A stretch of 64,000 nt of DNA from Roseospira goensis. GTDB taxonomy: Bacteria; Pseudomonadota; Alphaproteobacteria; Rhodospirillales; Rhodospirillaceae. The DNA lies in assembly GCF_014197795.1 (NCBI RefSeq), contig NZ_JACIGI010000011.1, positions 62,001-126,000 on the forward strand, in the 5' to 3' direction. Below are positions 14,568 through 46,001 of this stretch, piece after piece (the first letter of the stretch is position 1; each line of letters starts with the position of its first letter). The notes under the pieces were generated by a model, which was given only the letters and a program-made list of their open reading frames with translations, did no database searches and was not told the DNA's origin. A program made the position numbers and the translations under genes.

Positions 14568-15176
14568 TCACCGTTCCTCCCCGTCGCGCGGCATGCTGTG
14601 GCCGCGCAGGCTCTGGATCAGGTGCAACGCGGCCTGGAGCGTCATCAGGGCCACCGCGAACAGGATGAAGCCCTTGGTGAAGGCCGGGAACGGCGGGTTC
14701 CACGAGGTGCCCGAGCGTTCGAGCTGGATCGCGCCGGTCGGGCTGTGGCTGGCGCGGTAGAACAGCTGCCAGGCGGCATAGGTCATGCCGATGCAGAACG
14801 CCAGGATCACGCTGTTGTTGAACACGTCCAGCCAGCGCCGCACGCGGGGGGGCACCGCGTCGTAGATCACCCGCACCCGGATGTGCTTGTCGCGGGCCAG
14901 CGCCACCGGTCCACCCAGGGCGAACAGCGCCGCGATCAGCATGACCGTGCTCTCGTGCACCCACGACGTGGGGGCGTGGAACACATAGCGCATGATGACC
15001 TCGAAGACGCTGATCGCCATGGCGATGAAGACCAGCCAGGCCACGCCGTCGGCGCTGCGCGCGATGAGGCGGTCGAGGGGCGTGCGGATGATCCCCTCGG
15101 CGGCGCGATGCGGGTCGGGCTCCGGGGTTTCCGGGATGTGGACGGATTTGGGCGGGAACGACGATGGGTCGGACAT
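14568..15176 (-). CDS. TRAP transporter small permease (DctQ family)
   Basis: Four-helix subunit that pairs with the large permease, 202 residues. The hydrophobic segments are at about 51-70, 86-106, 126-150 and 167-190. The motif MRYVFHAPTSWVHESTV in the first half is the typical DctQ 'RY-F..P..W..E' signature. An N-terminal soluble stretch of about 45 residues (PPKSVHIPETPEPD) is longer than usual. The ATG at 15176 was chosen; an upstream in-frame ATG would add 15 Cys/His-containing residues without a ribosome site. It is directly coupled to the large permease gene. Confidence 0.92.
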   Translation of the reverse strand: MSDPSSFPPKSVHIPETPEPDPHRAAEGIIRTPLDRLIARSADGVAWLVFIAMAISVFEVIMRYVFHAPTSWVHESTVMLIAALFALGGPVALARDKHIRVRVIYDAVPPRVRRWLDVFNNSVILAFCIGMTYAAWQLFYRASHSPTGAIQLERSGTSWNPPFPAFTKGFILFAVALMTLQAALHLIQSLRGHSMPRDGEER

Positions 15177-15362
15177 GACCGAGCCCCCGTGACAAAGGTG
15201 GGGCGCGCACCGACGCGGCACGGCATCCGGCGCGCGGGTCGGACCCCGGGCGGCGCGCGACGGGCCACCCGGGACCGGCCGGAGGATCGCGCCGCGCGCC
15301 GAACGACACCCTTCGTTCGGTCGGCCACCGGCGCGACCGCGCCGGCGCCACGCCGCGGCGGA

Positions 15363-15395
15363 GGCCCTGATCCGGACTCGGTCCGGGTCAGGGCC
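15363..15395. terminator. Strong hairpin between the TRAP binding-protein gene and the small permease gene
   Basis: GGCCCTGA-CCGGAC and GTCCGG-TCAGGGCC pair with a single bulge position on each side and a 3-base loop, starting 9 bp beyond the binding-protein stop. There is no T-run. In transporter operons such intercistronic stems commonly stabilise the upstream mRNA or attenuate read-through, giving excess binding protein. Confidence 0.6.
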
Positions 15396-15403
15396 GATGG
15401 GGT

Positions 15404-16438
15404 CTACAGAAGGTTACGGGCCTTCAGGAAGGCGACCACGGACTCGTAGACCTTGCCGGTCAGCTCGTTGCGCTCGGCCCAGTTGGCCCATTCCTGCTGA
15501 GCGATAGCGCGGAACTTCTTGCGCTCCTCGGCCGGCAGGTCGACCACCGTGATCTCGGGATCGGCGCGGGCTTCCTGCACCGCCTCCAGGTCCAGGGCCT
15601 TCAGGTTGAACACCAGGTCATAGGCCAGGGCGTCCGTGGCGGTCTCCAGGATCGCCTTCAGGTCGTCGGGCAGGCCGTCCCAGATGTCCTTGTTGATCGA
15701 CACCGCCACCATCGGCAGCGAGTGGAAGCCCGGATAGCTGGGATACTGCGCGAAGCTGTGCAGGCCCTGACTGTGGTTGGTGGAGAACACGGTGTAGTCG
15801 GCGGCGTCGATGACGCCCTTTTCCAGGCCGGTATAGACCTCGGAGCCGGGCAGGTTCACCGGGGTGGCGCCGGCCTTGGAGAAGATGTCGTAGACCATGC
15901 CCTCGGGCGCGCGCAGCTTGAGGCCCTCCAGGTCCTCGACCGAGCGGATCGGCTTCTTGGAGACGAACGCCTCCAGGCCCGTCGCGGCGGCGCCGATGAG
16001 CTGCACGTTGTAGGGGTTGACCAGCTCGTTATACAGCTCTTCCCCGCCGCCGTACTGCATGTACTCCAGGAACTCCAGCGGATCGCCCCAGGCGCCCACC
16101 AGGTTGCCCAGCATGGAGAAGGCCGGGTTCAGGCCGGAGAAGTAGCTCGGGTCGGTCAGGTGGCCCTGCAGGATGCCGCTGCCGACGGCGTCCAGGGTCT
16201 GGTTGTGCGGCACCACCGCGCCGGTGGGCAGGATCTCGATCTTGATGCGACCGCCGGACATCACGCCGACGTTTTCGGCCCACTGCTGCTTGATCTTGTA
16301 CTGCGGCTCGCCGGCGGTCTCGGAGGTCTGGAAGGTCCACTCGTAGTCGGCGGCGCCGGCCGGGGCGGCCAGCAGCGCCGCGCCCAGGACGGCGCCGGCG
16401 GCGCCCTTCAGGAGCGGGGTCACGGTGCGCACGGTCAT
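15404..16438 (-). CDS. TRAP transporter periplasmic substrate-binding protein (DctP family)
   Basis: Periplasmic solute receptor of the TRAP importer, 344 residues. A Sec signal peptide (about 1-28, ending APAGAAD) precedes YEWTFQTSE. The DctP landmarks VSMSGGRIKIEILPTGA-like core, LKLRAPEG, VNLPGSEVYTGLEKGVIDAADYT and the C-terminal WANWAERNELTGKVYESV are present. The arginine in LRAPEG normally binds the substrate carboxylate. Two adjacent ATGs occur at 16441 and 16438. GGGAGG is better spaced for the second, which was chosen. The frame runs on upstream, antisense-free but out of register with gntR, and is not coding there. Ligand inferred as a sugar acid from the operon. Confidence 0.94.
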   Translation of the reverse strand: MTVRTVTPLLKGAAGAVLGAALLAAPAGAADYEWTFQTSETAGEPQYKIKQQWAENVGVMSGGRIKIEILPTGAVVPHNQTLDAVGSGILQGHLTDPSYFSGLNPAFSMLGNLVGAWGDPLEFLEYMQYGGGEELYNELVNPYNVQLIGAAATGLEAFVSKKPIRSVEDLEGLKLRAPEGMVYDIFSKAGATPVNLPGSEVYTGLEKGVIDAADYTVFSTNHSQGLHSFAQYPSYPGFHSLPMVAVSINKDIWDGLPDDLKAILETATDALAYDLVFNLKALDLEAVQEARADPEITVVDLPAEERKKFRAIAQQEWANWAERNELTGKVYESVVAFLKARNLL

Positions 16439-16515
16439 CATGTCCTCCCATGGAGATGGTGCACGGTTCGGGACCCGGGGCGCGACCACCGGCCGGCGGT
16501 CGCGGTCCGGCTCCC

Positions 16516-17352
16516 TTATGCCTCGGGCCTGTCGGCGCCGGGGGCCGGGCTCGCCCAGGCGCGGGCGAGCAGGGCGGCGTCCGCGGTCGTGCCCCCGTCC
16601 TCCAGGCCCAGATCCTGTCCGGTCCGGGCCATGACGTGGACGGCCGCCGTGAAGGCGGCCTCGGGCTGACGCAGGCGGATGCATTCCAGCAGGCGGCGGT
16701 GGCGCTCCAGGCTGTCGCGCAGTTCCGCCGCGGTGTCGTTGGTCTTGCGGATGACGATCAGGATGGTCGGACGCAGGATGTGGGCGAGCTGCGACCAGAC
16801 CAGGTTGTGCGTGGCGCGGTAGATGGCCGCGTGAAACCCCACGTCGTGCTCGGTGAAGGCGCGCGACAGCGGCTGGCCCGGCGCGGCCTCGGCCAGGGCG
16901 CGCTCCATGCCCAGGAACTCTTCCTCGATCGCGGCCAGGTCGCGCGCGCTCGCCCGTTCGGCCGCCTGGGCCGAGATGAAGGGCTCGGTGGCGCGGCGGA
17001 ACTCGAAGATCTGGCGCAGGATCTCGGGGTTGGGGGCGGCGTAGTCCGCCATCCAGCGGGTCACCAGCGGGTCCAGGATGTTCCAGTCGCCGTACTCGCG
17101 CACCACCGTGCCGAGGCCGGCGTGGCGGCTGATGATGCCCAGCGCGGTCAGGCTTTGCAGACCGGCGCGCACGCTGGCGCGGCTGACGCCGAAGCTCTCG
17201 GCCAGATCCACTTCGCGCGGCAGCAGGTCGCCCGGGTGCAGCGCCCCGCTGAACAGCTCGCGGGCCAGATGCTCGGCCACGCGGCTGCCCTGGTTGCGGG
17301 CGGCGGGCCCGGTCTCGGTGGGATCGGTGGCGCTGGACTCGGGGCGGGCCAT
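16516..17352 (-). CDS. GntR-family regulator, FadR/FCD subfamily
   Basis: DNA-binding regulator, 278 residues, that probably controls the sugar-acid operon. The N-terminal winged helix is at about 20-95 (GALHPGDLLPREVDLAESFGVSRASVRAGLQSLTALG). A C-terminal all-helical FCD ligand domain covers about 105-255, with metal-type residues in FRRATEPFIS, HDVGFHAAIY and ERHRRLLECI. FCD members of this type typically respond to sugar acids such as galactonate or gluconate (DgoR, LgoR). The ATG at 17352 has GGGGAG eight bases upstream; an ATG 69 bases earlier has none. It is the first gene of the minus-strand operon, 77 bp ahead of the binding-protein gene. Confidence 0.9.
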   Translation of the reverse strand: MARPESSATDPTETGPAARNQGSRVAEHLARELFSGALHPGDLLPREVDLAESFGVSRASVRAGLQSLTALGIISRHAGLGTVVREYGDWNILDPLVTRWMADYAAPNPEILRQIFEFRRATEPFISAQAAERASARDLAAIEEEFLGMERALAEAAPGQPLSRAFTEHDVGFHAAIYRATHNLVWSQLAHILRPTILIVIRKTNDTAAELRDSLERHRRLLECIRLRQPEAAFTAAVHVMARTGQDLGLEDGGTTADAALLARAWASPAPGADRPEA

Positions 17353-17443
17353 GACCGCGTCTCCCCGTTCGGCCGGCCCCCCTGCGGGGCGGCGCCGCGC
17401 GGATCGCGGCGGGCCGGCCATGAACCATGGCAGAAACGGTACC

Positions 17444-17458
17444 CCATGTCTGACATGG
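17444..17458. promoter_or_regulatory. Perfect 15-bp palindrome upstream of gntR, candidate operator
   Basis: CCATGTCTGACATGG is a perfect inverted repeat around a central T, 92 bp upstream of the regulator's start codon. Its position in front of a FadR-type regulator suggests autoregulation. FCD-family sites are often short, symmetric and AT-centred, so this is plausible but unproven. Confidence 0.45.
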
Positions 17459-17469
17459 CCGCAATCAGC

Positions 17470-17508
17470 TCATACTTATGAACCATGCAAGTCTATCTTG
17501 CACTGCAA
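17470..17508. promoter_or_regulatory. Cluster of overlapping inverted repeats upstream of gntR
   Basis: Three short dyads lie within 39 bp: TCATACTTATGA (17470-17481), GCAAG-N5-CTTGC (17487-17501) and TTGCACTGCAA (17498-17508). The stretch is AT-rich against its surroundings. Together with the 15-bp palindrome 11 bp away it looks like the control region of the sugar-acid operon; no convincing -35/-10 pair was found. The rest of the 317-bp gap 17353-17669 shows no gene. Confidence 0.4.
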
Positions 17509-17669
17509 CATGTCTGCTCTAATGGGATCCGGGTCCGTGACGACCCGCCCAATGCGCGCGCGGCCGCCCGCCCCATGGCGGGCCGACGGGGCGCGGGCGC
17601 GACCAAGCCGGGCTGCGACTCGGATCGCCGATGGCATCGAAGGAAGGAGAGGGCCGCCGGCCGGGGCGG

Positions 17670-18494
17670 TCAGGCGATCGGGGCCGCCGTGTCGCCGCCG
17701 GGGTGGCCGTAGAGCGCCGCCGCGCGCACGATGTCGCGCCCCTCGGCGGCCGTCACCAGGCTGCTGCGGACGCGACCGCCGGTGCCGGCGTCGCGCCGGG
17801 CCTCGATGACGCCGTGGGGCGGGCATTCGCCCCGGAAGGCAATGATCAGCTCGTCCGGCTGGAACGGCGCCGCGGTCACCGCGCCGGCCTCGCCCAGGGC
17901 CCAGGCGACCAGATGGGTGTGGTTGACGTGACCGTAGACGTCGACCTGCGCCGGGTGCACCGGATAACGCGCGGTCGCCGCCACGGCGTCGGCCGGCAGC
18001 GGGGCCGGCACGGCCGGTGCCGGCAGCAGTGCGGGACCCGGCGCGGGCAGCGCGCGCAGCACGGCGTCGGGATGGGCCAGCGGCCGGCGCGTGGCCAGAT
18101 CGAACAGCGACCACACGGAGACCGCCGCGCCCACCACGCCACCGCCCTCGACGGCGAGACGGTAGTGGCGCACCGCGCCGCGCCGTTCCACCGCCCCGGG
18201 CCAGGTCTCCACGCTCACGGTCTCGCCCAGGCGCGGGTAGCGCCGCAGCGCATAGCGGGCGCGGTTGAGCACCCAGACCCCGCCGCGCGCCATCGTGTCG
18301 GCCAGGCCTTCGCCGAACCGGTCGGCATTGGCGGCGGCGGCCTCCTGGCACAGGTCGGCCAGCGCCGGCAGGCCGATACGGCCGTCGGGCGTGGCCTCGC
18401 GCACGCGCACAGGAAAGCGAAGCCGGCTTGCCAGCGCGGGCGCGGCGGCGTCGGTGATCGTGGTCCAGACGGGGGGCTGGAGGGAGTCCGCCAT
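17670..18494 (-). CDS. Acyl-ACP thioesterase-like double hotdog protein
   Basis: Predicted cytosolic acyl-thioester hydrolase, 274 residues. The N-terminal hotdog (about 20-140) shows LADLCQEAAAANADRFGEGL, VWVLNRARYALRRYPRLGETVSVETWP and AAVSVWSLFDLATRRP. The second hotdog (about 165-265) carries VHPAQVDVYGHVNHTHLVAWAL, in which the D-x-x-x-H-V-N-x-x-x-Y/L pattern matches the 4HBT active-site helix. This two-domain layout fits the plant-FatA-like acyl-ACP thioesterase family. The ATG at 18494 is used (GGAGACGG upstream); the open frame continues much further but is noncoding. It is alone on the minus strand and separated from gntR by 317 bp. Confidence 0.78.
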   Translation of the reverse strand: MADSLQPPVWTTITDAAAPALASRLRFPVRVREATPDGRIGLPALADLCQEAAAANADRFGEGLADTMARGGVWVLNRARYALRRYPRLGETVSVETWPGAVERRGAVRHYRLAVEGGGVVGAAVSVWSLFDLATRRPLAHPDAVLRALPAPGPALLPAPAVPAPLPADAVAATARYPVHPAQVDVYGHVNHTHLVAWALGEAGAVTAAPFQPDELIIAFRGECPPHGVIEARRDAGTGGRVRSSLVTAAEGRDIVRAAALYGHPGGDTAAPIA

Positions 18495-18692
18495 CGGTCG
18501 GCCGTCTCCGGGGCAGAGGATGGGTGTCGGAGCGCCGTCATACAGCGTCCGCGCCGGCGGGGCCAGAGGCGCGCCTGTTTCGGTCGGCACCCGGATTGCA
18601 CCGTCCGTATCATCCGAACGGCATAGCCTCTCCCCTGACCTTCGTGTGGCTATCCTTCCGGGGGCAGATACACTAATAATAGCGAATGCGGT

Positions 18693-18719
18693 TTGAGACT
18701 GCGCTACGTTAGTTATACG
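18693..18719 (+). promoter_or_regulatory. Possible sigma-70 promoter of the diguanylate cyclase gene
   Basis: TTGAGA (18693-18698) and TATACG (18714-18719) are separated by 15 bp in an AT-rich island (18661-18720) upstream of the cyclase gene. The spacing is shorter than ideal, so this is tentative. Confidence 0.3.
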
Positions 18720-18759
18720 TGTGGTCTCGGGCCGCACTCGCGACAGGACGCCGCGCGCC

Positions 18760-20754
18760 ATGGACAGGATGATTGCGGACGAGGCCTCGGCAGGCGGCGC
18801 CGACGGGACGCTGGCAGCGGTGTTCCGACAGAGCCGATGGCCGGTGGCGGAGGTGGACGACAGGCTGGTCTTGCGGCGGGCGAACTCCGCGTTCGCGGCC
18901 CTGGCGGCCGGCACGCCGCCGCGCGTCGCCGGCTGCCGCCTGTCCGACCTCGCCCTGCCCGAGGCCGTGGTCACGATGGCCCGCGACGTGGTGCGCACCG
19001 GCCTGTCGGGCGAGGTCGTGACCGGGCGCGGGGACGTCGCGGGGACCGACGGCGGCTCGGGTGGGGAGACCTTCCTTCTGGAGCCGATCGTTGGGACCGA
19101 CGGGACCACCAGCGGGGTGCTCCTGTTGGGCGACGGTGCGCCGCAGCACGGGCGCAGCGCCTCGCCGCGACGTCCCGGCGAGACCGACTACCGGCTGATC
19201 GCGGAGAACCAGGCCGCCCTGATCGTCAAGGTCGATGCCGAGAACCGCTTCCTGTACGTCAACCCGGCCTACTGCGCGCTGTTCGGCCGCAGCGCCGGCG
19301 AGTTGACAGGTGAGACCTTCATGCCGCTGGTGCACGAGGCCGACCGGGCCGCCACGGCGGCGGCGATGGACCGCCTGCGCGAACCGCCCCACACCGCTTA
19401 CCTGGAGCAGCGCGCCCTCACCGTGCGGGGCTGGCGCTGGCTGGCGTGGCAGGACACCGCGGTGCTGGACGATCAGGGGCGCATCACCGCCATCATCGGC
19501 GTCGGGCACGACATCACCGAGCGCCGCACCGCGCAGATGCGGCAGCGCCGCACCCTGGAGAACCTCAAGGCGTTCTTCGAACTCTCCCAGGATCTGCTGC
19601 TCGTGCTCGACGAGCGCGGCCGCATCCGCGAGATCAACGCCGCGGTCACCGGCCGCCTGGGGTGGACGCGGCCCCAGTTGATCGGGCGCAGCGTCATCCG
19701 GCTGCTGTCGCGCCATCATCGGTATCAGCAGCGCCACCGCATTCGCGCCATCCTGGATGGGCGCTCGCAGTCGGAGCCGTTCACACTCGGCGATCGGGCC
19801 GGCCGACCGGTGCCGGTGGAGACCCGGGTCGTACGGGGCACCTGGGACGATGCGCCGGCGCTGTTCACCTCCAGCCGGGATCTCTCCGAACTGTCCCTGC
19901 TGCGCGAGAAGTTCGAGCGCGTGTTCCTCGACAACGCCACGCTGATGGCCATCACCGAGCCGGAGACCGGGCGCTTCATCGACGTGAATATGGCGTTCCT
20001 GCGCGCGCTGGGCCTGGAGCGCGCGCAGGTCATCGGCCGCAACACCGTCGACCTGGGGTTCTTCCAGACCCAGGAGGCGCGCCGCCAGGTCCTCGCCGAC
20101 GTGGAGGCGCGCTCCCCCGGCGAGCCGACCGAGATGGGCTTCCGGCTGACGGACGGGCGCACCCTGGTCTGCCAGTGGACCAGCACCCGCTTCACCAGCG
20201 GCGGCGCCGAGTACATGCTGACGATGCTGACCGATATCACCCGCCAGCACGAACTGATGGCCGAACTCGAACGCAAGGCCAATCACGATGCCCTGACCGG
20301 CGCGCTCAGCCGGCAGAAGGGCGCCGAGGAGCTGGAGCGGGAGATCCTGCGGTGCCGCCGGCACACCGGGCCGCTGTCCCTGATCCTCGCCGACGTGGAC
20401 GACTTCAAGCGGGTCAACGACCGCCACGGCCACATCGCCGGAGACCGCGTCCTCCAGGCTCTGGCCACCCGGCTGCGCGATCGTATCCGCCAGACCGACC
20501 GGCTGGTGCGCTGGGGCGGCGAGGAGTTCCTGGTCATCCTGCCCAGCACCGACCTGGACGGCGCTCTCCGCCTGGCGGAGGCGTTGCGCGGTACCGTGGG
20601 CGATGCCCTGTTCGACGGCGTCGGACGGGTGACCATGAGCATGGGCGTGGCGCGCTGGCGGGTGGGCGATTCGCTGGAGACGTGGATCAACCGGGCCGAC
20701 GAGGCGCTGTACCGGGCCAAGCGGACCGGCCGCAACCGGGTGATCCCCGACTGA
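18760..20754 (+). CDS. Multi-PAS diguanylate cyclase
   Basis: Makes c-di-GMP from two GTP. It is a soluble protein of 664 residues with no membrane segment. Four PAS-like modules precede the catalytic domain, at about 18-100 (degenerate), 135-255 (with FLYVNPAYCALFG and VGHDITERR), 262-375 and 380-490 (with FIDVNMAFLRALGL and LTDITRQHE). The GGDEF domain occupies about 500-664. Its active loop is GGEEF at 586-590, a competent variant, and RQTD at 577-580 forms the inhibitory I-site five residues before it. Start: a GTG at 18721 is also in frame; the ATG at 18760 is preferred though its ribosome site is weak. The ligand sensed by the PAS domains is unknown. Confidence 0.9.
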   Translation: MDRMIADEASAGGADGTLAAVFRQSRWPVAEVDDRLVLRRANSAFAALAAGTPPRVAGCRLSDLALPEAVVTMARDVVRTGLSGEVVTGRGDVAGTDGGSGGETFLLEPIVGTDGTTSGVLLLGDGAPQHGRSASPRRPGETDYRLIAENQAALIVKVDAENRFLYVNPAYCALFGRSAGELTGETFMPLVHEADRAATAAAMDRLREPPHTAYLEQRALTVRGWRWLAWQDTAVLDDQGRITAIIGVGHDITERRTAQMRQRRTLENLKAFFELSQDLLLVLDERGRIREINAAVTGRLGWTRPQLIGRSVIRLLSRHHRYQQRHRIRAILDGRSQSEPFTLGDRAGRPVPVETRVVRGTWDDAPALFTSSRDLSELSLLREKFERVFLDNATLMAITEPETGRFIDVNMAFLRALGLERAQVIGRNTVDLGFFQTQEARRQVLADVEARSPGEPTEMGFRLTDGRTLVCQWTSTRFTSGGAEYMLTMLTDITRQHELMAELERKANHDALTGALSRQKGAEELEREILRCRRHTGPLSLILADVDDFKRVNDRHGHIAGDRVLQALATRLRDRIRQTDRLVRWGGEEFLVILPSTDLDGALRLAEALRGTVGDALFDGVGRVTMSMGVARWRVGDSLETWINRADEALYRAKRTGRNRVIPD

Positions 20755-20890
20755 TCCCGGCCGGCTCGTGCCGCGCCGCGGCGCCGGTGGGGTCGCATCG
20801 GCCGGCCGACGGAGAAAGCGCGTTCGTCGGTCGGGATGGCGCGGGCGCGGATGCCTCCGGGGGGCGATGCCGCGCGTGTCGACCCAGCAT

Positions 20891-20952
20891 ACAGCCGATT
20901 GCGACAAGCCGGAATCGCGGCGCGATTTCGGTTTGTGGCGATAATCGGCTGT
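20891..20952. repeat. Long imperfect palindrome (BIME/REP-like element, arm 1)
   Basis: ACAGCCGATT at 20891 pairs with AATCGGCTGT ending at 20952. The inner arms also pair in blocks: GCGACAA with TTGTGGC, and AATCGC with GCGATT around a GGC loop. The whole can fold as a hairpin of about 62 nt. It shares its terminal AGCCGATT/AATCGGCT with the neighbouring element and with the one at 43981. Confidence 0.7.
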
Positions 20953-20965
20953 AAAATCAATAATG

Positions 20966-20996
20966 TAGAGCCGATTCACGTTCGAAATCGGCTCTA
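20966..20996. repeat. Palindromic repeat (REP-like element, arm 2)
   Basis: TAGAGCCGATT and AATCGGCTCTA are perfect inverted arms around a 9-base centre. Read on the minus strand, the core of this element (about 27 nt, 20965-20991) is identical to positions 44017-44043 of the palindrome after rplS. It is thus a dispersed, not a local, repeat. Confidence 0.75.
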
Positions 20997-21240
20997 ATAT
21001 ATAGTCTTGATTGTAAATACACAGTAAGGCACGCAGAAGAGCAGAGCGCGTCCAAGACCGATCGGAGATGGTGCAAACAGGCGGTGATTGTGAGACGCGA
21101 TCTTCCCGTGTCTCAATTTGCCTGTCATGATCCGGCCCTGGACGGCAACGGAGCGAAGCCTGCGGCGGAGCGCCGGATACCGCGTGAGGGGCGCCCCGCC
21201 ATCTCCCGGGACCCGCCGTGTTCTTCTTCGGAGACCCGGT

Positions 21241-22308
21241 ATGAGTACCTATGTCCAGATTCACGCGCTCACCTTCTACCCGGCCGCCAATCTGAGCAGC
21301 GACCACACCGGACGGCCGGCCCGCATGATGATGGGCGGGGTGCCGCGGCTGCGCATCTCCAGCCAGTGCCTGACGCGGGCGTGGCGCACGTCGCCGACCT
21401 TCGCCGAGACCCTGGCGGGGCACCTGGAGGAGCGGCGCGAGCGCCTGGGCGAGGAGGTGCATGCCTACCTGACGGCCAAGAACATGGCCGAGGACCGGGC
21501 GCATGAGGTCACGCGGGCCATCGTCAACGTCTTCGGACGCATGGAGGCCGGCGACAACGGCACCGCGCCGAGCGTGCGCCGGCTGTCCTCGATCAGTTCC
21601 CAGGAGACGGCCGGGGCGTTCGCGCTGGCCGATCGGGCGCTGGCCGGCGAGACCATCGACGCCTCGGCCGCGTCCGCGCTGCGTCGCACCGACGTGGCCG
21701 CCGACATGGCGGTGTTCGGGCGCATGAAGGAGGACGACCCCGCCTACACCCGCGAGCCGGCCGCCCAGGTGGCCCATGCCGTGACCACCCACCGGGCACT
21801 GGTGGAACGCGACCTGACGTCCGCGCCCGAGGAGCCCGACGCGCCCGACGCGCCGCCGGGCGACGCCGCCGCCCATCCCCAGGTGCTGCCCGAGACGGCG
21901 TTCGGCGCCGGGGTCTACTACCTCTATGTCTGCCTCAACCGCGACCAGCTCCGCGACAACCTGAAGGGGCACGACGGCATCGCCCAGGCCGCCAGCGCGG
22001 CCCTTGTGCGGGCCGTCGCCACCGTGGCGCCGCGCGGTCACATCGCGTCCTTCGCCCACCACGCCCTGGCCGGCTTCGTGCTGGTGGAGCGCGGCCCCGC
22101 CCCGCCGCGCGGCCTGTCGCTGGCGTTCCTGCGGCCGGTGCCGCCCGGCAACTACCTGGCGCAGTCGGTGCGGGCGCTGGCCACCACCCGGGATGCCCTC
22201 TCGGCGGCCTACAACGATACCCCGGACGCACTGGCGCTGGACATCACCGGAACCTGGCGTGGTCGCAAGGGCTGTCTGGACGAGCTGGCCGCCTTCGCCG
22301 CCGGGTAG
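21241..22308 (+). CDS. cas7e: Orphan Cas7e (CasC/Cse4), type I-E Cascade backbone protein
   Basis: RNA-binding protein that forms the crRNA-covering backbone of type I-E Cascade; 355 residues, full length (E. coli Cas7e has 363). The N-terminus TYVQIHALTFYPAANLSSDHTGRP, split here only by residue numbering 3-26, and the RLRISSQCLTRAWR block at 36-49 are diagnostic. FGRM at 159-162, QVAHAVTTH at 176-184 and FGAGVYYLYVCLN follow in the family order. In the SSQ motif the usual SLKRAWR reads CLTRAWR, so a lysine is replaced by threonine. The ATG at 21241 starts the homologous region; the ribosome site is poor. No cas3, cas8e, cas11, cas5e, cas6e, cas1 or cas2 and no CRISPR array is in the window. 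Codon use matches neighbours and the frame is intact, arguing against recent decay. Confidence 0.88.
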   Translation: MSTYVQIHALTFYPAANLSSDHTGRPARMMMGGVPRLRISSQCLTRAWRTSPTFAETLAGHLEERRERLGEEVHAYLTAKNMAEDRAHEVTRAIVNVFGRMEAGDNGTAPSVRRLSSISSQETAGAFALADRALAGETIDASAASALRRTDVAADMAVFGRMKEDDPAYTREPAAQVAHAVTTHRALVERDLTSAPEEPDAPDAPPGDAAAHPQVLPETAFGAGVYYLYVCLNRDQLRDNLKGHDGIAQAASAALVRAVATVAPRGHIASFAHHALAGFVLVERGPAPPRGLSLAFLRPVPPGNYLAQSVRALATTRDALSAAYNDTPDALALDITGTWRGRKGCLDELAAFAAG

Positions 22309-22340
22309 CGCCGACCCCGAGACCCCGCCGATACACGACG

Positions 22341-25130
22341 TCAGCGAGACGGGTCGGGAGGGCCCGATGCGGCCGTCTCGCCGGGGCGGCGGCGTGGCCC
22401 CAGGATCCGGGTCTCGATCCGCTTTTCCACCTCCACGATGCCGAACACCGCCACCCCGGCCAACGCGGTCGCGCCCCAGGCCGCCGCACTCAGCGGTTGG
22501 GTATCGAACAGCAGGTCCAGGCCCGGCAGATAGGTGAAGGCGACCTGTAAGCCGAGCACCGTGGCCACGGCGGCGCCGACGGGCAGGGTGATCGGCGGCA
22601 CGCCGCGTCCCGGCCCGGCGCGTCCGAAGCGCCGCACGTTGAACAGGTAGGCGATCTCGAACACCACCAGGGTATTGGTCGCCAGGGTGCGCGCCTCTGG
22701 AATGGTCGCGCCCAGGCCGCGCGCGATCCGATAGATCGCCAGAACGCCGATCAGGAACAGGACCGAGACGAAGGCGATGCGCCAGACCAGGCGGCCCGGC
22801 AGGATCGGCTCCTTCATCGGGCGCGGCGGGCGCGCCATGATGGTCTGTTCGCCCGGCTCGAAGGCCAGGGTCAGCGCCAGCGTGACGGCGGTCACCAGGT
22901 TGACCCACAGGATCTGCACCGGCGTGATCGGCATCGAGAAGCCCATCAGGACCGAGGCGATCAGCACCAGCGCCTCGCCGCCGTTGGTGGGGAGCATGAA
23001 CTGGATGGTCTTGATGAGGTTGTCGTAGACCCGCCGGCCCTCGCGCACCGCCGCCGCGATGGTGGCGAAGTTGTCGTCGGCGAGGACGAGATCGGACGCC
23101 TCCTTGGCCGCCTCGCTGCCCTTGCAGCCCATCGCCACCCCGATGTCGGCGCGCTTCAGCGCCGGCGAGTCGTTGACGCCATCGCCGGTCATGGCGATGA
23201 CGGCGCCGTCGGCCTGCAACGCCTCCACCAGCCGCAGCTTGTTTTCCGGGCTGGTGCGGGCGAACACGTCGACGTCGGCGACCGCGCGCCGCAGCGCATC
23301 GGGGCTCATGGCGTCCAGCTCGGCGCCGGTCAGCGCGCGGTCCACCGCGACAAGGCCCAGCTCGCGGGCGATGGCGCGGGCGGTCACGGCGTGGTCGCCG
23401 GTGATCATCTTGACGCGGATGCCGGCGCGCTGGCACTCGGCGATGGCCGCCACCGCCTCCGGCCGCGGCGGGTCCTGCAACCCCACCAGGCCCAGCAGCA
23501 CCAAGTCCCGTTCGGCGTCGGCCTCGGTCAGGTGCGTGCGGTGGCCGTCCAGCCGGCGCAGGGCGACGGCGAGCACCCGCTGGCCCTCGGCCGCGATGGC
23601 CTCGATGCGCGCGGTCCAGCGGTCACGGTCGAGCGGCCGGTCCCCGGTCGCGGTGCGTTCGGCGTGGCACAGATCCAGCAGGCGGTCGGGCGCGCCCTTG
23701 ACCAGCACCTCGCTGTCGCCGTCGTGATGGTCGTGCAGGCTGGCCATGTAGCGCCGTTCGCTGGTGAAGGGGATGCCGTCCACGCGCGGCTCGGCCCGGC
23801 GCAGCGCCGCCACGTCGATGCCGGCCTTGCGCGCCAGCACCACCAGGGCGCCCTCCATGGGGTCGCCGTGCACGCGCCAGCCGTCGCCGTCCGGATGCAC
23901 GCCGGCATCGCTGGCCAGCACGCCGGCGCGGGCCAGCGCCTCCAGGATCGGCAGGGTCTTGGCGTGGCTCTCGACACCGTCCACGTAAAAGGTGCCGGCG
24001 TGGTCGTAGCCGGCCCCGGTGACGGCGATGTCGTGGTCGGCGGTGGCGACATGGGCCACCATCATCTCGTTCTTGGTCAGGGTGCCGGTCTTGTCGGTGC
24101 AGATGACGGAAACCGAGCCCAGGGTCTCGATCGCGGGCAGGCGCCGGGCGATGGCGTTGCGCCGGGCCATCACCTGCGCCCCCAGGGCCAGGGTGATGGT
24201 CAGCACCGCCGGTAGGCCCTCGGGGATGGCCGCGACCGCCATCCCGACCACGGCCATGAAGATGTCGACGAAGGCGTAGTCGCGCACCAGCCAGCCGAAC
24301 AGGAACATGGCGACGGCGATGGCCAGGATGGCGATGGTCAGGCGCACGCCGAAGCGGTCGATGGTGCGCAGCAGGGGCGAGGTCAGCGTGCGCACGCCCG
24401 AGACCAGGTCGCTGATGCGGCCGATCTCGGTGGCCGCGCCGGTGGCGACGACCACCCCGCGCGCCGTGCCGGCGGTGACATAGGTGCCGGAGAACGCCAT
24501 GCTGGTGCGGTCGCCCAGGGACGCACCCGGGGCCACCGGGGCGGGGGCCTTGGCGGTGGCCACACTCTCACCGGTCAACACCGCTTCCTGCATCCGCGGC
24601 TCGCGCCCGCCCACGATGCGCAGGTCGGCCGGGACGCGGTCGCCGCCCTCCAGGTGCACGATATCGCCGGGCACCAGATCCTCGGCCGGCATGGTCAGGC
24701 GCTCGCCGTCGCGCACCACGGTGCACGACGGCGCCAGCATGGTGCGGATGGCGTCCAGCGCCTGTTCGGCCTTGCCCTCCTGGATGAAGCCGATGATGGC
24801 GTTGCCGACCACCACGGCCAGGATGACGCCGGCGTCGATCCAGTGCTGCAACAGCAGCGTGACCGCGGCCGCGACCAGCAAGACGTAGATCAGGACGTTG
24901 TTGAACTGGGCCAGGAAGCGCATCAGCGCCGTGCGGCGCCGCGGTTCCGGCAGCGCGTTGCGACCATAGCGGGCGCGCCGGGTCTCGACCTCCGCGGGCG
25001 ACAGGCCGGTGGCGGGGTCCGTGTTCAGGCGGGCGAGCACGGCGGCCGTGTCCAGGGCGGCCCAGTCGGGCGTCTCGGGTCGTTCGGAGGACTCCGCCGC
25101 GACGGCGCGTCGGGGCGATGAGGTGTCCAT
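22341..25130 (-). CDS. P2-type cation-transporting ATPase (calcium-pump-like)
   Basis: Integral membrane ion pump, 929 residues, of the SERCA/PMA-like P2 group. Order: N-terminal cation-ATPase domain (about 20-85, LSPAEVETRRARYGRNALPEP), two membrane helices, and an actuator with LVPGDIVHLEGGDRVPAD and the TGES loop in VLTGESVA. D346 lies in DKTGTLTKNEM. GDGVNDSPALKRADIGVAMG and a six-helix C-terminal block with LWVNLVTAVTLALTLAFEP follow. There are no N-terminal metal-binding cysteines, and CPC is absent, excluding the heavy-metal class. The ATG at 25130 has GAGGGAGAG upstream. Calcium is the common ion for the family; magnesium or sodium/potassium cannot be excluded. Confidence 0.9.
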   Translation of the reverse strand: MDTSSPRRAVAAESSERPETPDWAALDTAAVLARLNTDPATGLSPAEVETRRARYGRNALPEPRRRTALMRFLAQFNNVLIYVLLVAAAVTLLLQHWIDAGVILAVVVGNAIIGFIQEGKAEQALDAIRTMLAPSCTVVRDGERLTMPAEDLVPGDIVHLEGGDRVPADLRIVGGREPRMQEAVLTGESVATAKAPAPVAPGASLGDRTSMAFSGTYVTAGTARGVVVATGAATEIGRISDLVSGVRTLTSPLLRTIDRFGVRLTIAILAIAVAMFLFGWLVRDYAFVDIFMAVVGMAVAAIPEGLPAVLTITLALGAQVMARRNAIARRLPAIETLGSVSVICTDKTGTLTKNEMMVAHVATADHDIAVTGAGYDHAGTFYVDGVESHAKTLPILEALARAGVLASDAGVHPDGDGWRVHGDPMEGALVVLARKAGIDVAALRRAEPRVDGIPFTSERRYMASLHDHHDGDSEVLVKGAPDRLLDLCHAERTATGDRPLDRDRWTARIEAIAAEGQRVLAVALRRLDGHRTHLTEADAERDLVLLGLVGLQDPPRPEAVAAIAECQRAGIRVKMITGDHAVTARAIARELGLVAVDRALTGAELDAMSPDALRRAVADVDVFARTSPENKLRLVEALQADGAVIAMTGDGVNDSPALKRADIGVAMGCKGSEAAKEASDLVLADDNFATIAAAVREGRRVYDNLIKTIQFMLPTNGGEALVLIASVLMGFSMPITPVQILWVNLVTAVTLALTLAFEPGEQTIMARPPRPMKEPILPGRLVWRIAFVSVLFLIGVLAIYRIARGLGATIPEARTLATNTLVVFEIAYLFNVRRFGRAGPGRGVPPITLPVGAAVATVLGLQVAFTYLPGLDLLFDTQPLSAAAWGATALAGVAVFGIVEVEKRIETRILGPRRRPGETAASGPPDPSR

Positions 25131-25508
25131 GTCCGCTCTCCCTCGCGGCGGCGCCGCCAACCAGAGCCCTGACGGGACCCCAGGGGCCGCCACCCTCCAC
25201 GGTACCACCGGTCTGGGCGCGGGCGAAGGACATCCTGAGCCGTTCCACCGCCGGTCCAAGATCCTGGCGGCGCCCTGGCGCCGGGTGCCGTGCCGGCGGC
25301 GCGGGGGGCCGATGGGTGCGACTCCAAGGCGATCCGACGGCCGGGACTGGGCCTATTGGATGAACGGGCCGGCGGTCGCACCCAGGGCGTCAAAGTCACC
25401 GCGGTGTCGGGACCGATCGCATCCGGGTCGCGCCGGACCATGGGGCCTGGGGCCGCCTAGATCTTCGCCGCCCGCGCAAGGCGGCGGCGCGTGAAGAACC
25501 CATTTCAA

Positions 25509-25538
25509 CTTGTTAATCAACAAGGTGTTTCGTACGAT
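25509..25538 (+). promoter_or_regulatory. Probable promoter of the Pel operon with an overlapping palindrome
   Basis: TTGTTA (25510-25515) and TACGAT (25533-25538) are separated by exactly 17 bp. The perfect inverted repeat CTTGTTAATCAACAAG (25509-25524) covers the -35 box, a natural repressor position. The start codon of the first pel gene lies 48 bp downstream of the -10. The remaining 455-bp gap 25131-25508 is GC-rich and shows nothing else. Confidence 0.6.
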
Positions 25539-25585
25539 TATGGCTGATTGTATGGGGTCGTTTTCTCGTCGCTCGGGGTTCAGCG

Positions 25586-26497
25586 ATGACCGTCCGATTT
25601 GATCGCCGGGCGTTTCTGGTCGGCGGCACCATCGGTGTCGCGGCGAGTGCGTGCCCCTGGTCGGGGCTCCGACCGGGACCGGCCGCGATGTCTGCGGCCG
25701 CCGCCGCGCCGGACGGCGAGGGCGGGCGCTGGGTGGTCTACTACGGGGCCGAGGCGCCGATGTCAGCCTTCGCGCCCTATGATCTGGTGGTGCTCGACAG
25801 CGCGGTGACCGAGATCGTCCGGCCGCTGCGCAAGCGCGACAAGGACGTGCTCGGCTACCTGTCGCTGGGCGAGGTCGATCGCTACCGACCCTGGGCCGAC
25901 GACCTGGAGGCCGCCGGCCTGCTCGGGCCGGTGAATCCCAACTGGCCCGACAGCCGCCTGATCGACCTGCGCGATCCCGCCTGGACCCGCATGGTGGTCG
26001 AGCGACTGGTGCCGCGCATCCTGCGGCACGGCTTCAGTGGCGTGTTCCTGGACACGCTCGATACGGCCATTCACCGCGAGGAGACCGACCCCGCCCGCCA
26101 CGCCGGCATGATCGACGCCGCCGCGGGGCTGGTGCGCACGCTGCGCCGGCACTATCCCGCCATGCGCATCGCCGTGAACCGGGCCTACACGCTGTTGCCC
26201 CGCATCGTCGATCAGATCGACATCCTGCTGGGCGAGGCGGTGGTGGCCTCGTTCGACTTCGAGTCCCGCACCTACCGCCGGGTGGACGACGACGCCTACC
26301 GCTGGCAGGTGGAGCGCCTGGTGGCCGCCCGCCGGGCCAATCCCGCCCTGCGCGTGCTGACGCTGGACTACTGGCCGTCCGGCGAGGCCGAGGTGATCGC
26401 GAAGATCTACCAGGCCCAGCGGCGCAACGGCTTCGATCCCTACGTGGCGACCATCGCGCTCGACACCATCGTGCCGGAACCGGGGAGGTCGCCATGA
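25586..26497 (+). CDS. PelA-like glycoside hydrolase (GH114/GH166-type TIM barrel), stand-alone
   Basis: Secreted or membrane-attached hydrolase expected to cleave galactosamine-containing polymers such as Pel, 303 residues. A twin-arginine-like signal is seen at the N-terminus (DRRAFLVGG then a hydrophobic stretch, about 6-40). The barrel shows WVVYYGAEAP, YDLVVLDS, VLGYLSLGEVDRYR, HGFSGVFLDTLDT (catalytic acid region) and a terminal LRVLTLDYWPSGE. In Pseudomonas PelA this domain is the N-terminal third of a 950-residue protein; here it is a separate gene overlapping the deacetylase gene by 4 bases. First gene of the operon, 48 bp behind the predicted promoter. Confidence 0.87.
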   Translation: MTVRFDRRAFLVGGTIGVAASACPWSGLRPGPAAMSAAAAAPDGEGGRWVVYYGAEAPMSAFAPYDLVVLDSAVTEIVRPLRKRDKDVLGYLSLGEVDRYRPWADDLEAAGLLGPVNPNWPDSRLIDLRDPAWTRMVVERLVPRILRHGFSGVFLDTLDTAIHREETDPARHAGMIDAAAGLVRTLRRHYPAMRIAVNRAYTLLPRIVDQIDILLGEAVVASFDFESRTYRRVDDDAYRWQVERLVAARRANPALRVLTLDYWPSGEAEVIAKIYQAQRRNGFDPYVATIALDTIVPEPGRSP

Positions 26498-28737
26498 CCG
26501 CGCCGCCCGCCGCGATGCCCCGGACCGTCCTGGCCCTGTACCATCCGGCGGGCAACGAGATCCGCTATCACTTGCTGCATGCCGTCGCCGAGTTTCCCAT
26601 GAATCACCTCGGCATGGTGGTGCGCTATCACAACGTGCTGGAGCCGTTGCCCGATCCCGACACGCTGCCCGGCCTGCGGGCGGTCGTCACCTGGTTCCGC
26701 GGTGCGCGTCTGGACGATCCGGCGGCATTTCTGGCCTGGGCGGGGGGCCTCCAGGCGCGCGGCGTGCGGTTCGTGGTCCTGGGCGATCTTCTGTTCGCCG
26801 GGTCACCGGACGACCCCGCGATCCGGGCGCCGCTGGCGGGTTTCCTTGCCGGCCTCGGCCTGCGCTACGGCGACCGCTGGATCTCCGCCAGTTACGGCGT
26901 AACCTTTCCGGTGCGCGATGCGCGCATGATGGACTACGAACGCGCGCTCGGCGGCATGCTCCAGGAGTATCCGGTGGTGCGGCCGACCGATCCGACCGAT
27001 CCGGCCGTGCGGTCGTGGCTGGTGGCGCGCTACGACGACGACCCCGACCTGGACAGCCACCTGGTGGTCACCGGCCCGGCGGGCGGGTTCGCGGCCGCCG
27101 GCTACGAGGTGTTCACCGAGGATTCCGGCTACAACCCGGCGTCGGAGGACCTGGACCCGGACGGCCTGCGCGCCTGGCTGCTGGATCCGTTCCTGTTCTT
27201 CGGTCAGGCGTTGGGCCTGGACGGTCTGCCGCGCCCGGACATCACCACCCTGACCGGACGGCGGATGTACTTCAGCCATATCGACGGCGACGGCTGGAAC
27301 AGCAAGGCTGAACTGCCGGGCTACGAGGAGCGCGGCGCCATCGCGTCCGAGGTCGTGATGCGCGAGGCCATCGAGCCGTTCCCCGATCTGCCGGTGACGG
27401 TGGCGCCGATCGCGGCGGAACTGGATCCGGATTGGCGGGCCGTGCCGCAGTCGCAGGACATGGCCCGGGCGCTGTTCGCGCTGCCGCAGGTCGAGACCGC
27501 CAGCCACACCTATACCCACCCGTTCCACTGGGACTTCTTCGCCGACTACACGCCGGAGAAGGAGGCGCCGTTCGTCGCCGCCCTGGAGGCGAGTGGACAA
27601 CTCAACACCTACGGCAGCGCCGCGCTCGATCAGGAGATCCTGGACATCGGCGAGGCGGACCTCAGCAAGAAGTACTCGCGCCCGCGGGCCTTCCTGGACC
27701 AGCCGTTCGATCTCGACCGGGAGATGGGCGGCGCCGCCGCCTTCATCGACCGGTTCGCGCCGGCGGACAAGCCCGTGCGGCTGGTGCAGTGGTCCGGCGA
27801 CACCAAGCCCTATCCGGAGGCGCTGACCGCCGCCCGCGAGGCGGGCCTGCTGAACATCAACGGCGGCGACACCCGCTTCGACGGGGCGTTTCCGTCCGTG
27901 GCCTGGGTCTCCCCGAACGGCCGGCTGGTCGGGCCGCCCGACCAGGAAGAGCGCCAGATCTACACCGCCGCCAGCAACGAGAACACCTACACCGACCTGT
28001 GGCGCGGGCGCTTCTTCGGGTTCCGGTTCCTCACCGAGACGCTGGACCGCTGCGAGTCGCCGATGCGTCTCAAGCCGATCAACGTCTACTACCACATGTA
28101 TTCGGGCAGCAAGGTGGCGAGCCTCAACGCGCTGCTGCATAACCTCTACTATGCCCGCGCCCACCCCGTTTGCCCGGTCACCACGACGCACTTCGTCACC
28201 ATCGTCGACGGCTTCTACGATACCCTCTTGATCCCGCTCGGACCGGACCGCTGGCGCGTCTCCGGCCGGGGTGCCCTCCAGACCATCCGCTTCGACGCGG
28301 CCACCCATCGGGCGGTCGACATGGTGGCCTCCGAGGGCGTGCTCGGCCAGCGGCATTACCAGGGCAGCCTGTACGTGGCGTTGGACCCGGCGGTCGCGGC
28401 GCCCGAGATCGCGCTCATGGACTGGCCGACCCCGGACCGGGCGCCACCCGGGACGCCGCGGCCGTACCTGATCGAAAGCCGCTGGCCGCTGCGCGCGCTG
28501 CGCCGCGACGGTGACGGCGACGGCCTGACGGTGCAGGCGCAGGGCTTCGGCGACGGCGCGATGGCCTGGCAGGTGCCACCCGAGGCCGAGGCGCGCGTCA
28601 CCGCCCGGGATGCCGGTGGCGCGGCGGTGGCGCGCCTGTCGGCCCGGGCCGACCGCACCGGCCGCCTCGCCTATGCGCTGCCGCCGGTCGGTCTCGACGC
28701 GGTGGAGGTGCATCTCGCCCTGGCGAGGCCGTCATGA
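26494..28737 (+). CDS. PelA-like polysaccharide deacetylase, stand-alone
   Basis: Predicted periplasmic N-deacetylase of the Pel polymer, 747 residues. It begins with a Rossmann-like region (about 8-230, ALYHPAGNEIRYHLLHAVAEFPMNHLG, given here as residues 15-41). The catalytic NodB-like barrel follows with SHIDGDGWN near 262 and TASHTYTHPFHWDF near 333, which supply the metal-binding Asp and His residues. SNENTYTDLW and the conserved INVYYHMYSG come later, and the C-terminus is beta-rich. No signal peptide is evident, unlike the hydrolase gene before it; export could be non-classical or the start could be upstream. It overlaps its neighbours by 4 bases on both sides, so translation is coupled. 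Confidence 0.87.
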   Translation: MTAPPAAMPRTVLALYHPAGNEIRYHLLHAVAEFPMNHLGMVVRYHNVLEPLPDPDTLPGLRAVVTWFRGARLDDPAAFLAWAGGLQARGVRFVVLGDLLFAGSPDDPAIRAPLAGFLAGLGLRYGDRWISASYGVTFPVRDARMMDYERALGGMLQEYPVVRPTDPTDPAVRSWLVARYDDDPDLDSHLVVTGPAGGFAAAGYEVFTEDSGYNPASEDLDPDGLRAWLLDPFLFFGQALGLDGLPRPDITTLTGRRMYFSHIDGDGWNSKAELPGYEERGAIASEVVMREAIEPFPDLPVTVAPIAAELDPDWRAVPQSQDMARALFALPQVETASHTYTHPFHWDFFADYTPEKEAPFVAALEASGQLNTYGSAALDQEILDIGEADLSKKYSRPRAFLDQPFDLDREMGGAAAFIDRFAPADKPVRLVQWSGDTKPYPEALTAAREAGLLNINGGDTRFDGAFPSVAWVSPNGRLVGPPDQEERQIYTAASNENTYTDLWRGRFFGFRFLTETLDRCESPMRLKPINVYYHMYSGSKVASLNALLHNLYYARAHPVCPVTTTHFVTIVDGFYDTLLIPLGPDRWRVSGRGALQTIRFDAATHRAVDMVASEGVLGQRHYQGSLYVALDPAVAAPEIALMDWPTPDRAPPGTPRPYLIESRWPLRALRRDGDGDGLTVQAQGFGDGAMAWQVPPEAEARVTARDAGGAAVARLSARADRTGRLAYALPPVGLDAVEVHLALARPS

Positions 28738-31700: not shown

Positions 31701-32093
31701 GCCGAGGACTGGCGGGCGGCCCAGGCGGCGCTGGGTCAGGTCATGCGGGGCGGGGGGGCCGACTGGGAGAGCACGCTGTATTATGCCGACGTGTTGCGCC
31801 GGAGCGGCGGCGAGCGGGCCGCCCGCGCCTACGACGCGCGCGCCCTGGCCGCCCTGGACCGCGTCGAGGATGGCGACAGCCTCGCCATCCAGCGCACCCG
31901 GGCCATGCTGCTGGCCCGGCTCGGCCGCACCGAGGAGGCGGAACGCCTCTATACCCGCCTGATCGCCCTGCATCCGGGCGATGTGACGCTGCGCACGGCA
32001 TACGCCAACAGCCTGCTCGACCGGGGCGAGATCGCCCGCGCCGAGGCGGTGCTGGACGGCCCGCGCCTGCGCACCTCGCAGGTGGCGCGATGA
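28734..32093 (+). CDS. PelB-like N-terminal half: membrane-anchored TPR protein
   Basis: A 1119-residue scaffold with one N-terminal membrane anchor (about 4-22, FVFLLVSLITAAALLLV) and about thirty TPR-type helical repeats. Examples are MYFRDKQYAEAEAALEAQL, GDVDAAIAVMERYTDRRP, GRPDLALDVLARF and GRTEEAERLYTRLIALHPGD. In Pseudomonas the equivalent repeats are fused to the outer-membrane pore as one ~1190-residue PelB; there they bind and activate the PelA deacetylase. Here the pore is a separate downstream gene joined by an ATGA overlap. The gene is strikingly rich in alanine and GC, with open antisense frames that are artefacts. Confidence 0.85.
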   Translation: MKLHVVFVFLLVSLITAAALLLVPGEDDLGQMYFRDKQYAEAEAALEAQLAEGNWTSFVVTPLVKLHLQAGDVDAAIAVMERYTDRRPRDVAALERLATYYRYAQRYTDFRLTLERVRAIDSTPPLLRTLSALYNRAGRLDAQVDAMAELVARGWATKQEALGLSYIQVALGRFDAAVETLDRLARLSPRAVNADVTNLRVFALAAGGDTAVAARTARAWIAGGGTLKTAMQHAIYLEQFGRPDLALDVLARFDALAGVSPDLLSQVARLLRATGAPEAARLRLTRLYDQGRLEPWMVETLMDLALTTGHLDQALSILAGAAPPALIPDWMVASLIEKALLDGRPAFLERLLAHLDAADLEPVPLLAARLMHAVGRPAMARQWAMTAHAHWRDLSGDQQLALASLLGAIGDDAASLAMFRQVAAQPSPPPDVWPGLSWAYVRQGRVAEGLADFRQRGAATGADPDMTLGWLVLAVNAGRTDVVADWVQSDAFGRLDVATLERIRTLGGEAGSWRLHLAAGERLVAVRDSPEDRAELTVAMAMAAVTRPDLAALRPFILARPDTAAGLAALADPAPRLAATLARTLGVAVPAPAARGLSPEAREAVAAAEAAVLGDPSAAAEAAAAVLGGLRPLLPNAEPALAAAYASAVVVATRADQPPAVVARRTAERRVAADDPARAEQWLATLARLGGLETAAPRLERLARREPDRWLYPYLEILAELGRSEEITRFLLAELERPDLSTEQREARLYALLDKGDPAAAGSRLRDMAVRQGPPWSDIYAEQLRRSGQTQALARFWRARAARPDLGAPERAQLAYKLLEIGDKAAAEPLFRRLAEGAPPTADAVSNLLYLWGPRPRADELAWLEQRARAAGADDLGGWLAHLVDRGAAGRALALLDDRPDALADPAVLDVAVRAAERDGDGMALRRFLALSLDPSQPVALDADALLGHARIALWRGLPRLAQAGFQTVLNRRPNDAEALAGLGKAAYAAEDWRAAQAALGQVMRGGGADWESTLYYADVLRRSGGERAARAYDARALAALDRVEDGDSLAIQRTRAMLLARLGRTEEAERLYTRLIALHPGDVTLRTAYANSLLDRGEIARAEAVLDGPRLRTSQVAR

Positions 32094-33892: not shown

Positions 33893-33974
33893 CGCCCGCG
33901 CCACGCCGGCGCACGGGGCGCCAGCACGGCGCGGGCCGACCACGCCACCGGCCCGGCGCATCCAGGGGGGAGTC

Positions 33975-44072: not shown

Positions 44073-46001
<1,929 letters not shown>

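Follow-up and report, generated by a model that had tools for sequence, protein, structure and literature searches.

The window analysed here, a stretch of 64,000 nucleotides from Roseospira goensis, contains a solitary gene derived from cas7e, which encodes the backbone subunit of the type I-E CRISPR effector complex Cascade (Table 1). The genome is available as a draft of 81 contigs with a size of 4.18 Mb and a completeness of 98.6%. The reading frame of the gene stays open in the upstream direction as far as a TTG at position 21118, and the ATG at position 21241 is taken as the start codon because the relatives start there. According to the initial annotation, the gene is located between a diguanylate cyclase and a cation pump, and both neighbors were confirmed with Pfam. 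The gene begins 486 bases after the PAS-GGDEF cyclase gene. The P-type ATPase has a 56% paralog on contig 2 and only partial matches of 23-44% in the six congeneric genomes, and the best congener matches of the GGDEF protein are 57-59% in two genomes and 40-49% in the other four. Synteny within the genus was uninformative, as the cation pump and a 747-aa protein of the neighborhood are without close homologs in the six congeners. Among 14 neighboring proteins, no mobile-element family was found with Pfam, and PADLOC gave one weak match among five further neighboring proteins.

Table 1. Features of the orphan cas7e locus and of the other CRISPR-Cas loci of the genome. Positions refer to the window unless a contig is named.
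Feature	Position	Strand	Description and evidence
PAS-GGDEF diguanylate cyclase	18721..20754	+	upstream neighbor; Pfam
64-nt imperfect palindrome	20890..20953		repeat-family copy in the spacer upstream of cas7e; inverted repeats
Second hairpin of the same repeat element	20966..20996		terminator-like on the minus strand
Shine-Dalgarno-like GGAG	21230..21233	+	7 nt 5' of the ATG; direct sequence reading
Orphan Cas7e-derived gene	21241..22308	+	355 aa + stop, ATG; PF09344, PADLOC Cas7e, PDB 9uer_E, tree position among I-E Cas7e
Motif NRDD..PK changed to SSDH..PA	21295..21321	+	codons 19-27; N19S, R20S, D22H, K27A
K45T	21373..21375	+	codon 45; K in 108/108 other rows
Thumb D-D-aromatic-aromatic-T-A-V-D-D-L (near relatives) changed to RDLTSAPEEP	21808..21837	+	codons 190-199
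K266 of E. coli changed to H	22039..22041	+	codon 267; K in 106/108 other rows, R and M in one each
P-type cation ATPase	22341..25259	-	downstream neighbor, convergent; 32 bases between the two stop codons; Pfam
Type I-G locus	contig 13: 7,800-22,000 (L063, L064, L099)		cas4-cas1 fusion, cas3g, cas5-6g, cas7g, cas2, about 68 repeats GCTTCAATGAGGCCGGGGCATTACTGCCCCGGGAAG
Type II locus	contig 1: 17,560-23,810 (L065)		Cas9 of 1047 aa, weakly scoring Cas1, 8-repeat array

The spacer upstream of cas7e harbors a two-hairpin element that belongs to a palindromic repeat family of the REP or MITE kind. The half-site of the palindrome was found 73 times in the genome of R. goensis (41 forward and 32 reverse matches with at most 3 mismatches, some pairs of which belong to one copy) and not at all in the six congeners; a reversed-pattern control gave 0 matches here and 1 in one congener. 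In fuller copies the element is about 150 bases long, with further copies for example at loci L204, L205, L208 and L063 (at about 13494). A search with Rfam at gathering thresholds found nothing in the window. Recombination between copies of this palindromic repeat could have removed cas genes upstream of cas7e, and no repeat copy fits on its downstream side because only 32 bases are available there. Further downstream, genes for a GH114 protein, the 747-aa protein, which has no Pfam match, a 1119-aa TPR protein and a GAF protein are clustered at positions 25586-35444, a group that we take to resemble a pel exopolysaccharide cluster. A 71% copy of the 747-aa protein is encoded on contig 17, and the six congeners gave no match to it. 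At positions 44076-45410, a 445-aa protein is encoded that shows a weak PADLOC match to DpdA (22.8 bits, E = 8e-6) and is perhaps a relative of tRNA-guanine transglycosylases.

Full-length homology and placement in a phylogenetic tree assign the protein encoded at this locus to the Cas7e family. It matches the Pfam family PF09344 with 203 bits (cut-off 26) and three PADLOC models for Cas7e with 208-185 bits. Its matches among PDB sequences are solved Cascade Cas7/Cse4 chains, the best of which is 9uer_E (E = 7e-60, residues 1-335). The blocks RLRISSQ, FGRM, and QVAHAVTTH, by which the gene had originally been recognized as a full-length type I-E Cas7e, are all present in the 355-aa frame.

The nearest Cas7e, with 57% identity over the full length, is that of Roseospirillum parvum 930I (G040; NZ_FNCV01000010.1). 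In a maximum-likelihood tree of 29 rows the orphan Cas7e is the sister of the R. parvum protein (support 98/92), followed by the Cas7e of genome G030, which establishes its descent from type I-E Cas7e proteins as far as this can be read from sequences. A tree had been proposed in the initial annotation in order to see whether the gene clusters with other orphans; no other orphan was seen among the loci tested. The end branch of the orphan Cas7e is about five-fold longer than that of R. parvum (0.89 vs. 0.17). At positions at which the other two members of the trio consisting of the orphan, R. parvum and G030 agree, 82 of 247 residues are replaced in the orphan lineage compared with 16 of 181 in the sister lineage. 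Genome G030 also contains a second, distant operon of the I-E type (L036, G030:C1:1560001-1580000), whose Cas7, L014, groups with L090 at a branch length of 2.54.

A further claim of the initial annotation, that an intact cas7 is present here without other cas genes nearby, holds for the whole contig. When 13 I-E Cas proteins from the two closest relatives were searched by tblastn against all of its 131,382 bases, window included, no credible cas gene besides cas7 was detected. The best other match (E = 0.006 over 62 positions, window 17541-17723) is taken as chance, and the possibility that remnants of other I-E genes are located beside cas7e was rejected on the same basis. A repeat-spacer array, absent according to the initial annotation, was likewise not found: positions 15000-28000 contain none, and the repeat pattern of type I-E, searched with a tolerance of 3 mismatches, occurs 0 times in the genome compared with 13, 14, and 44 times in three relatives that have I-E systems. 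One of the congeners matches this pattern once, at 3 mismatches. The usual setting of a Cas7e gene, among further I-E cas genes and next to an array, is accordingly lacking.

The suggested search of the remaining genome for type I-E partners gave the same picture. PF09344 has a single match in the genome, which is the orphan Cas7e itself, so there is no second Cas7e. For the Cas5 family PF09704 there is no match in this genome, and for the Cse1 family PF09481 there is none in this genome or in the six congeners, while the two included relatives with I-E systems do match. A joined cas8e-cse2-cas5e-cas6e query from the closest system, which reaches close relatives only, found both I-E relatives and nothing in R. 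goensis. These searches of the genome found no Cas8e, no protein of the Cas5d family, and nothing closely related to Cse2 or Cas6e, and a complete I-E operon lacking its own cas7, which would have spoken against a solitary survivor, was not found in it. The Cas1 search matched in the E. coli control genome; PF09344, PF09704, and PF09481 had no match there, although strain K-12 carries casA, casC, and casD. Searches with these three families can therefore miss divergent members. Within the limits of the family and close-relative searches, the genome has no I-E partner for the orphan Cas7e.

Matches to Cas1 led to two other CRISPR-Cas systems in the genome, one of type I-G and one of type II. 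The type II locus is accompanied by what appears by eye to be an IS3-type transposase pair. The presence of two further systems counts in favor of the possibility, considered in the initial annotation, that the orphan gene provides Cas7 in trans for another locus. However, one of them is of type I-G and has its own Cas7g and the other is of type II, the searches of the genome found neither Cas8e nor Cas5e of type I-E, no Cse2 or Cas6e close to those of the nearest system and no I-E repeat, and the residues D22, K27, and K45 are lost from the orphan protein (see below). Supply in trans is thus disfavored as highly improbable. The cell has other CRISPR-Cas loci, but no type I-E system able to use the orphan Cas7e was found.

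The isolated position of the gene is exceptional among its relatives. In the family, 12 of 74 genomes including R. goensis match PF09344, none of the six congeners being among them, and in the order 30 of 318 genomes, again including R. goensis, match the orphan Cas7e. Twenty-nine other Cas7e loci of the order were examined, of which L097 was dropped from the neighborhood count as it has no cas7 match to the closest relatives. Each of the other 28 is accompanied by one or more additional I-E genes at a distance of up to 1.5 kb. Of these loci, 27 have cas5e, and the remaining one, L074, which is located at a contig edge, has cas8e and cse2. An earlier scan of genome contigs with the single protein as query had found no relatives; a second scan, directed at GTDB species genomes and using three aligned sequences as query, found 121, of which the best 80 were kept, and all 80 have cas5e within the fetched stretch (flanks up to 4 kb). 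The two counts overlap, because R. parvum recurs among the 80 (L109). Among all loci tested, the gene of R. goensis is the sole orphan. Relatives are also found on plasmids: 100 records of a plasmid collection match the orphan Cas7e, the best with 47% identity, and among the 30 matches listed most are annotated as cas7e, several of them beside casB or cas5e. Among the hosts of plasmids with genes annotated as type I-E cas7e are Roseomonas, Methylobacterium, and Acetobacter. A phage collection gave 3 matches with 30-35% identity, and two scans of viral contigs gave no relative. A phage or plasmid origin of the gene was rejected, since the best plasmid match has only 47% identity and the phage and viral collections gave nothing close.

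The orphan Cas7e deviates from its family at positions that are otherwise fixed. Conservation was evaluated in an alignment of the orphan with 108 other rows (107 of them distinct), in which residues are numbered according to E. coli; L096 and L098 are too distant and were not aligned, and L074, a truncated near-copy of L073, was left out of the conservation counts and the tree. The residues N19, R20, K27, K45, and G210 are invariant in all 108 other rows, and all five are changed in the orphan. D22 is an aspartate in 106 and a glutamate in 2 of the other rows and a histidine in the orphan. In the thumb, the positions of W199 and F200 are aromatic in all 108 other rows and are occupied by leucine and threonine, respectively, in the orphan. 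V203 is replaced by proline, and T201 by serine, a change that also occurs in 32 of the 108 other rows. The lysine-to-threonine change noted in the initial annotation is thus real and located at residue 45, and it is one of about ten losses at fixed or nearly fixed positions and no isolated variant. The orphan retains S40, Q42, and M166 together with the three arginines R38, R46, and R49.

Several of these residues have described functions. In the account given in PMC5965380, K27, S40, Q42, and K45 of the Cas7 palm contact the crRNA, M166 intercalates, W199, F200, T201, and V203 contact crRNA phosphates, and D22 together with W199 docks Cse1 and Cse2. Measured against these contacts, K27A, K45T, W199L, F200T, and V203P are lost and S40, Q42, and M166 are kept, and the docking site at D22 is occupied by histidine. 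Altogether, 12 of the 54 columns with at least 95% conservation are changed in the orphan Cas7e, against a median of 0 for the other rows. Some distant Cas7e rows reach comparable numbers (L094 12/54, L014 11/55, E. coli 10/54), but they keep N19, R20, K27, and K45. The excess of losses at contacts named in the literature is weak (3 of 6 vs. 9 of 48 other conserved columns, p = 0.12) and becomes more pronounced when thumb residues are added by class, an addition made after seeing the data (6 of 10 vs. 9 of 48, p = 0.013). The loss of contact and docking residues itself is established by the alignment. From these losses we infer that the orphan Cas7e is unable to assemble into a normal crRNA-bound backbone or to dock the subunits Cse1 and Cse2, and it probably no longer works in Cascade.

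A different view would be that the protein is a still-working Cas7e whose partner operon is unassembled, located on a lost plasmid or too divergent to be found, with the odd residues being tolerated by a co-evolved Cascade. The draft state and the completeness of the assembly would allow for this, as would the alphaproteobacterial plasmids carrying genes annotated as type I-E cas7e and the failure of the family searches to detect the genes of the E. coli control. However, a cas7 located apart from its operon would be an exception in its own right, with 0 of 28 and 0 of 80 cases among the loci tested, residues that are fixed in 108 other rows are lost, and the genome is without an I-E repeat. 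This view is therefore considered very unlikely.

A survivor of a lost I-E system that has been kept intact, which was among the readings put forward in the initial annotation, fits the data well, as all related loci tested adjoin I-E cas genes, the frame is open, and the codons are host-like. The question is then whether the gene is maintained or is a relic under relaxed selection, i.e., whether the I-E system was lost and cas7e survived by chance, drifting freely without having acquired a stop codon or a frameshift yet. Codon usage argues against the latter. The codon adaptation index (CAI) of the orphan gene is 0.728 compared with 0.738 for its sister and 0.18-0.29 for out-of-frame controls. 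It is 0.69-0.74 for four neighbors, which are themselves part of the five-gene reference set, and 50 frames picked from the same genome have a median of 0.715 with a 5-95% range of 0.545-0.805. The codon adaptation is thus demonstrably at host level, and the claim of an intact frame of 355 codons with neighbor-like codon use is borne out. In neutral simulations starting from an ancestor assumed to have the CAI of the sister (0.738), 20-24% extra replacement led to a mean CAI of 0.57-0.675, and at most 0.5% of 200 runs in each of four mutation-bias settings reached 0.728. When the extra replacement was only 10-15% and the GC bias was strongest, fractions of 0.08 and 0.045 reached this value, which is non-significant or barely significant. 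The GC3 of 0.93, which is as in the neighbors, is uninformative by itself at the strongest GC bias (0.31-0.44). Third codon positions have undergone G/C-to-A/T changes less often (7/186) than first and second positions (32/330, p = 0.015), which also speaks against decay.

Further evidence against decay comes from the frame and from the substitution rates. The gaps relative to the sister, of 8, 3, and 3 amino acids, are all in frame, and both ends of the gene are complete although the contig gave no trace of the rest of the operon. In a codon-based branch model, which is limited by saturation at synonymous sites and has one branch length at its bound, a free omega of 0.24 on the orphan branch (lnL -6765.7; background omega 0.047) fits better than an omega of 1 on the whole branch (lnL -6769.3). 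The value of 0.24 is, however, not significantly above that of a single-omega fit (lnL -6767.0).

The distribution of the replacements points in the opposite direction. When the columns are ranked by decreasing conservation, the changed fractions are 0.22, 0.26, 0.30, and 0.51 in the orphan lineage (12/54 conserved columns; 20/76 and 13/44 moderately conserved columns) and 0, 0.05, 0.03, and 0.25 in the sister lineage. Replacement in the orphan is thus nearly independent of column conservation, and this near-uniform addition of about a quarter across the column classes fits drift. The number of non-hydrophobic residues at hydrophobic columns, 8 of 73, is as drift predicts (neutral means 8.2-12.1), and under neutrality a frame without stop codons is not rare in such a GC-rich gene (probability 0.015-0.17). 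The presence of the gene in a single genome and in none of the six congeners is likewise consistent with a relic. In summary, long neutral drift is disfavored by the open frame, the in-frame indels, and the host-like codons and favored by the nearly even spread of changes over conserved and core positions. A relic drifting under relaxed selection is a serious possibility, to which we assign somewhat less than even chances. A translated and retained former Cas7e with a changed role has about an even chance of being correct and is regarded as slightly likelier than decay, on the evidence of one genome.

The gene started as a type I-E Cascade backbone gene, the sister of that of R. parvum, and now stands alone, having probably departed from Cascade. 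A protein that is unable to build the normal crRNA-bound backbone but is translated and kept would be expected to have a changed role. The proposal of a domesticated RNA-binding protein in the initial annotation is weakened, since K27, K45, three of the four thumb residues, N19, R20, K266, and D22 are gone; some RNA binding may persist because S40, Q42, and M166 remain. As the grip on RNA is damaged, the changed role may rest on the Cas7 fold, a modified RRM palm with fingers, contacting a protein partner.

A candidate for such a role is provided by AcrIB3, which is described as a viral Cas5 homolog of 38% identity that replaces Cas5 in the type I-B Cascade (PMC13131331, citing Katz et al. 2024). 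By analogy, a defective Cas7 subunit may poison I-E Cascades that arrive on plasmids, and an antagonist of incoming Cascades is conceivable because plasmids carry annotated type I-E cas7e. In this specific form, a host-domesticated, non-CRISPR Cas7e would possibly act as a dominant-negative subunit in plasmid-borne I-E Cascades, stopping filament growth or the docking of Cse1 and Cse2, which we consider unlikely. Like AcrIB3 as portrayed in that source, the orphan Cas7e is a lone homolog of a Cas subunit without the contacts needed by the complex. In contrast to AcrIB3, which is viral and acts on type I-B, it is a chromosomal Cas7e in a cell in which no I-E system was found, no mobile-element family was seen among the neighboring proteins scanned, and its antagonism would be conjectural.

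Its closest counterpart, the Cas7e of R. parvum 930I, shares with it the SSQ, FGRM, and HAxTxH motifs as well as R46, R49, and M166. The orphan differs from this protein by the lack of an operon and by N19S, R20S, D22H, K27A, K45T, the altered thumb, and K266H. To our knowledge, Cas7e is known only as part of the effector complex. Literature searches, with most subscription journals outside their coverage, found no paper on an orphan or solo cas7 and none on solo cas genes in connection with anti-CRISPR and Cas7. Other cas genes are described apart from complete systems. Isolated or orphan cas loci are cas genes left without an array (Zhang and Ye 2017, PMC5294841); a cas locus as defined there requires at least 3 cas genes, whereas one diverged gene is found alone here. 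Solo-Cas4 is encoded by a single cas gene outside CRISPR loci (PMC5704561), but Cas4 is a nuclease and Cas7e a backbone subunit.

The gene of R. goensis is a diverged former Cas7e of uncertain present use. Should it be no more than a relic, it still documents the loss of a CRISPR system and shows which constraints on Cas7e relax. If the changed role is true, a lone expressed Cas7e would represent a natural separation-of-function mutant that lacks the RNA grip and the docking site, and it would test the co-option of effector subunits after the loss of a CRISPR system. Viruses are reported to have co-opted homologs of Cas5 and Cas8 (PMC13131331), and if domestication is true, the orphan Cas7e would be a host-encoded counterpart of the viral Cas5 mimic AcrIB3.
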